A DNA stretch of 64,000 bases. Origin: Salinibacter sp. 10B (lineage in GTDB: Bacteria; Bacteroidota; Rhodothermia; Rhodothermales; Salinibacteraceae). Shown in pieces: positions 21,554-23,903 of the stretch (position 1 is its first letter; each line of letters begins with the position of its first letter). Both the position numbers and the translations under genes were made by a program. The DNA is taken from assembly GCF_002954405.1 (NCBI RefSeq), contig NZ_MQWC01000004.1:198318-262317 (forward strand). Direction: 5' to 3'. A model generated the notes under the pieces. It ran no database searches and was not told the origin of the DNA. It saw nothing but the letters and a program-made list of their open reading frames with translations.

Positions 21554-22171
21554 ATGAACGTTCTACGTTTTACATTAATTCGCGGAGGACTCGCGATGTG
21601 TCTCGTCGGCCTTTTGGCCGCCGGGTTGCTCGTCGCACAGTCCACATTCGCGCAGTCCACAACCGAACCCCTGACCCTCATAAAACACCTTCGAACCGAA
21701 CTCGGCTCGAAGGACGACGCCCGCCAGGAGCGGGCCCTTATCGACGTGATTGCCCTGGCGTCCTGCCAGGAGAGTTGCACCGTGTTCCTGCAATCGGCGA
21801 TGAACCGGAAGGTCCGGATCGCAAACGAATCCGGAACCGGGAATGTCGTCGATCTGGACGCACTTACCCCCGGCCTTCTTCGTGCCTACCGAAGTGGTCC
21901 GGGTGACGGCCACAAGCTTCTGGCCCTTTCGGCCCTCATTAATGTCGGTAACCAGAAAGCCCTCGAGAAACTCATCGAAGAGAAGGACGCGCAGAGCGCT
22001 GACGTGCAGAGGGTCACGAACATGAGCCTGGCATCATTCTACTTCGCAAAGTACCCGGATCTCACCGAACGGTCCATTCGTCGGCGCAGCCTCACGCTCG
22101 ACGACGTGCAGCGGGCCGAAGTCCTTCGTGTGCGGGCAGAGAGGCGTGCGCAAAAGGAGGGAGGGCAGTAG
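21554..22171 (+). CDS. Secreted HEAT-like hypothetical protein
   Basis: This is a 205-residue exported protein of unknown function. Residues 1-33 form a signal peptide (LAMCLVGLLAAGLLVAQSTFA, cleaved near FAQS). The mature part is almost wholly helical. The segments ERALIDVIALASC, KLLALSALINVGNQKALEKL and RVTNMSLASFYFAKYPDL have the helix-pair look of HEAT repeats. One cysteine pair (ASCQESC) could form a disulfide. The C-terminus is Arg-rich and basic, unusual in this acidic proteome. A strong GGAGG lies 7 bases before the ATG, rare in this window. No neighbour gives a hint of its role. Confidence 0.7.
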   Translation: MNVLRFTLIRGGLAMCLVGLLAAGLLVAQSTFAQSTTEPLTLIKHLRTELGSKDDARQERALIDVIALASCQESCTVFLQSAMNRKVRIANESGTGNVVDLDALTPGLLRAYRSGPGDGHKLLALSALINVGNQKALEKLIEEKDAQSADVQRVTNMSLASFYFAKYPDLTERSIRRRSLTLDDVQRAEVLRVRAERRAQKEGGQ

Positions 22172-22416
22172 GCGCCGGGAGGACCGGCTGCGCGTGTGCC
22201 AAATCCCTGGCTACCAGCTGCTGTTCTTAGTCCCCTCGGTCTGGAAGGAGGCGATCTGGAAAGAGGCGACTGTGGAGCATCCGCCCACGATCGACCGACC
22301 GCGATCACGCAGTCCCGAGGGCTGGCGGGGGCTCTGAGTTGATCGAACAGTCCGTATGCAAGGGTAGAGGCACTTTCACTACTCCGTTACGTTTTTCCTC
22401 TTGACCGGAAACAGCG
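22172..22416. other. Intergenic, upstream of the tRNA relic
   Basis: This 245-base stretch follows the HEAT-like gene and leads into the tRNA-like relic. No gene or terminator is visible in it. If the relic was once a functional tRNA, its promoter lay here. Confidence 0.4.
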
Positions 22417-22490
22417 GGGGGCGTAGCGTAGGGGTAGAGCATCACACTAGAGATGTGCTCTGCGTTCGAGACACAACGTAGCGCGATGCT
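22417..22490 (+). pseudogene. Degenerate tRNA-Gly-like sequence
   Basis: The stretch GGCGTAGC...GGGGTAGAGCATCAC (22420-22445) closely matches the 5' half of bacterial tRNA-Gly genes, including the D-loop GGTAGAGC. The D-stem no longer pairs (GCGT against GAGC), the anticodon region does not give a 5-bp stem, and the T-arm (GCGTTCGAGACAC) and 3' acceptor do not pair. It is therefore read as a decayed tRNA gene. A perfect terminator follows directly, as often seen after tRNA genes. Loss of this copy implies another tRNA-Gly elsewhere. The identity as Gly is inferred from sequence resemblance only. Confidence 0.5.
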
Positions 22491-22497
22491 TTAGAAG

Positions 22498-22530
22498 AGC
22501 CTGCCTCGGCCTAGCCGAGGTGGGCTTTTC
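22498..22530 (+). terminator. Rho-independent terminator after the tRNA relic
   Basis: A 13-bp stem runs from A22498 to T22526 around a CTA loop (core CCTCGGC/GCCGAGG, with two G-T pairs) and is followed by TTTC. It is the second-best terminator in the window and has stayed intact although the tRNA-like sequence in front has decayed. Confidence 0.8.
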
Positions 22531-22689
22531 GCATGGGGGCCTGTTCCATGTGAGCGCTCCTGTGTTGGAGGGAGGGTTGCCTGGGCCAGCTGGACGAGCT
22601 TTTCCCTGTCCCCAATTTTCTCGTCAAAGCCCGATGTTCTCGGCGGAATTGTTCTGAAAGGACCTCGCCTCCCCGGACGCAGCGGGTGA

Positions 22690-22800
22690 AGGTCTCTCAT
22701 GAGGCGTGGCCGGGGTGCAACTTCATGACTCGTTCGGTCCGGCACAGCCGCATCAATAACGACGTTTGTGTCGAATAGGACGCGGACAACTGGAAAAGTA
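22690..22800 (-). pseudogene. PIN-domain (VapC-like) relic
   Basis: The minus strand reads VRVLFDTNVVIDAAVPDR (from about 22787 downward). This is the typical opening of PIN-domain ribonucleases, including the first catalytic aspartate of the LFDTN motif. After about 20 residues the reading frame turns into unrecognisable sequence and no other PIN motifs follow, so only the N-terminal strand and helix remain. PIN toxins are often carried with antitoxins on mobile elements. None is visible next to it. Not functional as it stands. Confidence 0.5.
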
Positions 22801-22877
22801 GTGGCCAGAAAAGAAGGGGAAGAGGGCGTTGCCAGCTACCGATGCGGCACCGAAAGGGAGGCGGACTACCCGGCGGG

Positions 22878-23180
22878 CTAGCGGCCTGATCGATCTTCGA
22901 GCGGCCGAGGATAGAGGGGCACGCCCTCGCCTTCAACGAGTTGGGCGTCCTCGGTTGTCAGAACCACCAGCTCGCGTCGGCGAAGCGCGCCGGTCCAGCC
23001 GACCAAAAGAAGTGCGCTGTCACGAAGGGGGAAGCCTCAGCCGGCTTGCGGCGCATTCTCACGAGTCTGCCACAGCCGCTGATGGCCCTGCCGGCGTTTC
23101 TCTCGTTCTGGGGTTTGAGCCGGTTCTGCCCGTCGAGTTGGACTGGAAGGGATTCCACGCACAGGCGCCTATTCGGCATT
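22878..23180 (-). pseudogene. Tyrosine recombinase (integrase) relic
   Basis: In one minus-strand frame, 23024 down to 22878 reads RDSALLLVGWTGALRRRELV and continues VLTTEDAQLVEGEGVPLYPR. That is the diagnostic box I region of phage-type integrases, including its catalytic arginine. An in-frame TGA lies just upstream at 23037-23039, and the frame stops at 22878, before the His-x-x-Arg and Tyr boxes. The upstream part (to about 23180) is probably the decayed N-terminal region. Together with the tRNA relic and the PIN relic it suggests a former integrated element. Confidence 0.6.
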
Positions 23181-23220
23181 TCTTCACGGTCAAGTCAGTC
23201 ACGAGGGAAACACGCTGTTA

Positions 23221-23259
23221 ATTGATAAATTAATTGAGTAGAATTAATTATCGAGTTAA
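23221..23259. promoter_or_regulatory. AT-rich promoter and putative TetR operator before tetR
   Basis: This stretch is over 80 percent A+T in a GC-rich setting. It holds ATTGATAA (23221-23228), a second similar word, and ATTAATTATCGAGTTAA (23243-23259). The last is shared in 13 of 17 positions with the site in front of tolC. Its place 27 bases before the regulator start fits an autoregulated promoter. Confidence 0.6.
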
Positions 23260-23285
23260 AAACCATTCTAAACTCCGTCGGCACC

Positions 23286-23903
23286 ATGTCTTCACCGCGC
23301 AATGAAACCGAGTCTCGCATTCTAGAGGCTGCCCAAACTGTGTTCGTCCGGGAGGGAACCCGCGAGGCCAAGCTCAAGGAAATCGCCGAGGAAGCCGACG
23401 TCAACCAGGCGCTTTTGCACTACTATTATCGCGACAAGAAAACCCTGGCAGATACGGTCTTCGAGAAGGTGGCATCGGAATTTTTCCCTCAGTTGGAGGC
23501 TATATTGAACGCCGATCAAACGGTGGAGGAGAAGGTGAGAACGTTCGTCCCGAAATACATCAATCTCATTCAAGAAAACCCCTACTTGCCGTCCTACATC
23601 GTGGGAGAGTTAAATCGAACCCCGGCAGAGTTGAAAGATCGGGTCCGATCATTAGATCTAGCCCCGTTCGAAAAGCTTGGCCCCCTTGATCAGCAACTGA
23701 AGCGGCGGGCCGAGGAGGGAACGCTCCAGCCCATCTCGGCCCAGCAGTTCGTGGTGAATCTGGTGTCCCTCTGCGTCTTTCCCTTCATTGCGCGCCCCCT
23801 TCTTGAGGCCGCGTTGGGGATGGAGAGGGAGAACTTCGAGCATCTCCTGGAAGACCGGAAGGAGGCGGTGCCGACATTTTTCCTCAATGCTATTCAGCCT
23901 TGA
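23286..23903 (+). CDS. TetR-family transcriptional regulator
   Basis: This is a 205-residue repressor. The N-terminal helix-turn-helix region (residues 4-50) is typical, with SRILEAAQTVFVREGTREAK and ADVNQALLHYYYRDKKTLAD. The C-terminal helices form the ligand-binding and dimer part, here with a segment PFIARPLLEAALGMERENF. It is followed 161 bases later by a TolC-adaptor-ABC export module on the same strand, and shared AT-rich sites precede both, so it almost certainly controls that module. In this arrangement the inducer is usually a toxic compound or metabolite that the exporter removes; the actual ligand is unknown. Confidence 0.93.
   Translation: MSSPRNETESRILEAAQTVFVREGTREAKLKEIAEEADVNQALLHYYYRDKKTLADTVFEKVASEFFPQLEAILNADQTVEEKVRTFVPKYINLIQENPYLPSYIVGELNRTPAELKDRVRSLDLAPFEKLGPLDQQLKRRAEEGTLQPISAQQFVVNLVSLCVFPFIARPLLEAALGMERENFEHLLEDRKEAVPTFFLNAIQP

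Follow-up and report, generated by a model that had tools for sequence, protein, structure and literature searches.

The locus at positions 22374-23141 of the 64,000-nucleotide stretch of Salinibacter sp. 10B DNA analysed here (the window) probably comprises two unrelated things side by side: a copy of a gene for a small non-coding RNA (22374-22532) and a patch of gene debris (22624-23141). The window spans 198318-262317 of C4, a contig of 4.3 Mb on which all 47 tRNAs detected in the genome (G000) are located. The locus is flanked by a 205-aa gene of unknown family (21554-22171), for which no Pfam match was obtained, and by a TetR gene (23286-23903). Of the 13 genomes of the genus, none of the remaining 12 contained a match to the TetR gene at E <= 1e-30. 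Homologues of the upstream gene were 47-55% identical, with none of the three tested neighbouring window genes within ~1.5 kb, and searches of the genomes of the genus via these two genes revealed no syntenic locus.

The putative small-RNA unit lies on the plus strand and consists of a promoter-like region, a hairpin and a terminator-like hairpin. It is duplicated on another contig of the same genome (C5:80496-80652, locus L002), and the match, 84% identical over 159 nt, stops at the ends of the unit although the queries extended further on both sides. Two promoter-like boxes could be read from the sequence, TTGACC (22401-22406) and TAGCGT (22424-22429), corresponding to TTGACT and TATTGT in the C5 copy. 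Folding and alignment predicted a long irregular hairpin at 22435-22493, with a 9-pair base (UAGAGCAUC/GAUGCUUUA) and a 7-nt apical loop; in a longer fold, the minimum-energy structure of the window copy pairs the 5' arm otherwise. The 13-bp terminator of the original prediction was confirmed as a strong hairpin at 22494-22530, which forms 17 pairs counting G-U and ends in TTTTC. Two further copies were detected in another genome of the genus, G010 (C319:3095-3230 and C1:169-295; loci L016 and L018), and share 77% identity over 128 nt. In each of the four copies, TTGAC is followed by a TA...T box and, after 6 or 7 nt, by AGAG; then come a hairpin that closes with CTTTA and a terminator-like hairpin. 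Counted by eye, the spacer between the boxes is 17 nt in the two G000 copies and 19 nt in the two from G010. Two genomes thus contain four homologous copies of a conserved structured unit, as would be expected of a small RNA gene. As the terminator hairpin is common to all four, the supposed tRNA terminator most likely belongs to the small-RNA gene.

Every copy folded better than most of its shuffled counterparts. The z-scores were -3.38 for the window copy and -4.33 for the L018 copy (0/200 shuffles at least as good in both cases), and -2.49 for the C5 copy and -3.15 for the L016 copy (2/200 in both cases). An RNA model started from the G010 pair alone recovered the other two copies, that on C5 with an E-value of 7e-10 and that in the window with 4e-7; much of its score is due to the terminator, and looser cut-offs also bring in other hairpins. 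In a joint alignment of the four copies, 97.2% of 108 pair cells were standard pairs, compared with 45-58% when partners were slid, but shuffled 3' letters already gave 95.4% and the alignment itself is fitted to the structure. Covariation was slight, with 2/31 pairs changed on both sides, a value matched by 76/500 shuffles. Within the 59-nt hairpin the window and C5 copies differ at four positions, two of them in loops, one changing a U-A to a U-G pair and one opening the outermost pair, whereas 15/61 columns differ in the region upstream of the hairpin. This contrast gave a Fisher p of 0.011 for a 59-nt segment that had been chosen afterwards, and a p of 0.052 for the full 22435-22532. The pairing is preserved among the copies, and we infer that the unit may be transcribed and functional.

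The copies differ in their apparent state. Consensus promoter and terminator scans called neither element in the window copy, both in the C5 copy and only the terminator in the L018 copy, with its 19-nt spacer. Both the -10 box of the window copy (TAGCGT) and its T-tail (TTTTCGCATGG) look poorer than those of the C5 copy, and the terminator scan probably missed the window hairpin because just four T follow it. Judged from these elements, the window copy may be failing or silent. Similar ends were also observed at L036 ~1450-1570 (G002:C1:52471-52491), where a promoter-like stretch, TTGACA...TTTTCGTAT, and the terminator end GGCGGGCTTTTCGTATTTT occur without the hairpin core; such a terminator end may be widespread in the genus.

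Among 114 genomes of the order, the family was seen in two, G000 and G010, each of which has two copies. The patchy distribution, together with the weak promoter and tail of the window copy, would suit a repeat or a pseudogene that recombination has spread and that has no selected role. As the differences between copies mostly preserve pairing, we consider this unlikely and prefer a small RNA gene. A search for the conserved 18-letter core with at most one mismatch gave matches in 6/114 genomes of the order, four of which, besides G000 and G010, showed no unit by eye; a backward control also gave scattered matches with this pattern, and diverged copies could escape it. No match to the unit was obtained in named plasmids. 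In phages, one search gave none and another gave three records (E 0.04 over 32 nt), which were taken as chance, and in viral contigs one search gave none and another a single stretch in which the unit was absent by eye. In named genomes, nine matching stretches were obtained, i.e. the two G010 copies and seven without the unit by eye.

At E <= 0.1, RNA model R1 gave 13 matches in 9/27 genomes of the family, among them the four copies. The nine others were judged to be other terminators; four of these lie in candidate RNAs of the type found at L054:1330-1600 (plus strand; G005:C1:2636505-2636775). The L054 candidate is a 271-nt structured RNA with a fold z-score of -4.48 and no Rfam match. It had matches in 9/27 genomes of the family including its own, of which G003, G004 and G023 matched only a near-identical block of 28-30 nt, and was not found in the genome of the window at E <= 1e-5.

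No Rfam family reached its cut-off in the window. Below the cut-offs, leuA-Halobacteria was listed for 22100-23300 (14 bits, cut-off 47.9) and five matches were listed for L002, L016 and L018; on the C5 copy itself these were rnk_pseudo (23.7, cut-off 55) and RcsR1 (18.4, cut-off 60). All were taken as chance and not as the identity of the unit. A coding function was also rejected, since a short frame (MCSAF...) that was read by eye within the hairpin of the window and C5 copies was not seen in the G010 copies. Likewise, inspection by eye showed nothing consistent that would indicate a cis-antisense RNA to a gene on the opposite strand. No description of the putative small RNA was found among the titles listed for literature on Salinivenus or on small or noncoding RNA of Salinibacter, or in the text passages seen of PMC7002113, which deals with small RNAs of a halite community.

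The possibility that the unit acts as leader or attenuator of a downstream gene, and is not a free-standing RNA, was weighed against the surroundings of the copies. The hairpins are strong, and a same-strand frame follows both the C5 copy (386 aa) and the L018 copy (532 aa, by eye a phytoene desaturase). These two known downstream frames are, however, unlike each other, the contig ends beyond the L016 copy, and the next recognised plus-strand gene in the window starts ~750 nt past the unit, on the far side of the debris. A leader therefore appears distinctly improbable, and we retain the free-standing small RNA. As the contexts of the four copies differ, they do not suggest a target or partner. 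The spacer in G010 that contains one of the copies has a much shorter counterpart, lacking the copy, at the corresponding locus of G000. Two Xre/RES toxin-antitoxin pairs were also observed on C5, at L023:16327-17283 and L025:12095-13055, one at a distance of ~0.7 kb from the C5 copy of the unit, the other immediately following an integrase gene.

The transcript of the putative small RNA would be expected to start near 22435-22437. The predicted RNA would fold into a single long, bulged hairpin, the loop of which has 7 nt, followed by the strong terminator-like hairpin. CopA and RNAI are plasmid antisense RNAs. The putative RNA is similar to them in its length of ~90-100 nt, its long bulged hairpin, its short variable loop and its terminator hairpin, and also in that one copy, that on C5, is located on a contig which is probably a plasmid. 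It differs from them in that no replication gene was recognised beside the C5 and G010 copies among some nearby frames that were scanned. By this analogy, the most likely mode of action might tentatively be that of a regulator with a constant stem that displays a variable apical loop, in the manner of plasmid antisense RNAs.

The stretch that is here assigned to the small-RNA unit had originally been read as the 5' half of a tRNA-Gly gene, a claim that was not supported. A tRNA covariance model, built from 24 of the 47 tRNAs of the genome and run with filters off, gave 9.7 bits at 22417-22468 (E 0.89 for the window), ranking fourth of the 26 matches listed (E up to 10). This is chance level; the real tRNAs of one cluster scored 51-83 bits with the same model (n=5, four of which were in the model). 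ARAGORN detected no tRNA in the 64-kb window, and none was found either in an Rfam scan of the window at the cut-offs or in an E-value scan of 22100-23300. A tRNA-Gly pseudogene was rejected on these results. The sequence 22419-22448 is nevertheless identical to a real tRNA-Gly(TCC) at 26/30 positions (E 0.025), its best match in its own genome outside repeats of the unit and of the relics. The C5 sister copy is identical to the same tRNA stretch at only 21/30 positions, and no tRNA-model match was listed at the positions of the C5 copy or of either G010 copy. The likeness is a good coincidence, though not a negligible one; that a tRNA contributed to the window copy is unlikely but conceivable. 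Evidence for the involvement of a tRNA is not seen.

The original prediction had further proposed that an element integrated at this tRNA-Gly gene and that, after the decay of both, half a tRNA remained together with a terminator and relics of a PIN and an integrase gene. Besides the 26/30 match, GTTCGAGAC at 22463-22471 resembles a T loop by eye, and the integrase and PIN relics are both real. In addition to the chance-level score and the lesser likeness of the C5 sister, which has the whole unit, this account is opposed by the fact that a tRNA 3' half was not seen, and neither ARAGORN nor the tRNA model revealed a tRNA target for an integrative element in the window. A search for direct repeats in 22172-23290 gave one imperfect 15-nt pair, away from the tRNA-like stretch, and no att-like repeat within this span. 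The terminator, which was thought to have outlived the tRNA, is part of the duplicated unit. Integration at a tRNA-Gly gene is therefore highly improbable, and we hold to a small RNA gene beside unrelated debris.

In the debris, four relics were recognised by DNA and protein similarity: the C-terminus of a tyrosine recombinase with a stop in place of a Trp (22624-22718, minus strand), a PIN-type N-terminus between two integrase pieces (22710-22787, minus strand), the box I region of a recombinase of that family (22885-23029, minus strand) and a frameshifted ZIP metal transporter (23050-23141, plus strand). The integrase box I stretch and the PIN N-terminus had both been predicted on the minus strand and were borne out. 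In tblastn, the 316-aa integrase frame of C5 (L025), which itself matches Phage_integrase (PF00589, E 4.9e-13), was 78% identical over 41 aa at 23027-22905 (66 bits), and the PIN piece, at 22787-22710, shared 73% identity over 26 aa (40 bits) with a G002 frame of 86 aa. In the protein comparison, 50 shuffles gave a best score of 24.6 bits. Two pieces of the integrase C-terminus were recovered. The start of one, 22789-22676 (28 bits), overlaps the PIN frame and is probably over-extended; the other lies at 22671-22627 (22-24 bits). Besides the stop, this C-terminal relic has a Cys aligned with the Tyr that, by its position, is the presumed nucleophile of the recombinase. The ZIP transporter, missed in the original prediction, occurs in two plus-strand frames, 23055-23102 (33 bits) and 23105-23140 (22 bits), and its DNA is 76% identical to G001:C4:72775-72867. 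Considering the best shuffle, the two smallest protein pieces would not stand alone, but at the DNA level the integrase C-terminus is well supported, e.g. 80% identity over 95 nt (E 2e-17).

Profile searches gave a different result from the comparison with longer genes. Five open frames of the stretch and a trimmed integrase piece had no match in Pfam. The trimmed 26-aa PIN piece matched PIN_3 at E 0.032, and the homologue of this piece did so at E 0.0026, both below the cut-off. Neither a direct match to PF00589 nor an open frame was found for the recombinase, which is represented by fragments with a stop and frame changes. As the relics thus fail the profile test that had been proposed for them, the case for them is based on similarity to longer genes.

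The PIN and integrase DNA matches overlap by 10 bases (22709-22718), which suggests a join at microhomology. The recombinase, PIN and ZIP pieces would have been brought together by deletions and illegitimate joins, and plasmid-type DNA would probably have entered the chromosome before the debris formed. The DNA of the integrase pieces is 75-83% identical to DNA on contigs C5, C1 and C10. We infer that these contigs are plasmids from their size, their absence of tRNAs and their plasmid integrase and PIN relatives. The site-specific integrase of the S. ruber plasmid pSR116 (NZ_CP030365.1), which adjoins CopG/PIN pairs, is 84.8% identical to the 401-aa integrase of G002, one of two yardsticks for the window relic; unlike it, the window integrase is broken into fragments and carries a stop and changes of frame. 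The S. ruber plasmid pSR118 (NZ_CP030363.1) has an annotated PIN protein that is 54% identical to the G002 frame matching the window relic; in the window, only ~26 recognisable residues remain.

As an instance of mobile-type genes undergoing decay in a chromosome, the debris is ordinary. For the unit beside it, a tempting misreading is corrected, in which a probable hairpin RNA gene had been mistaken for half a tRNA, and a putative small RNA family without a match at Rfam cut-offs is named in a little-studied lineage. It is conceivable, but rather doubtful, that this family is a rare small-RNA cassette, a unit of ~130-160 bp comprising an upstream box, promoter, hairpin RNA and terminator that would move between plasmid and chromosome without flanking homology, with the stem base and terminator remaining constant while the apical hairpin diverges. 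If true, this would be the pattern expected of an RNA that owes its target or incompatibility specificity to its loop.
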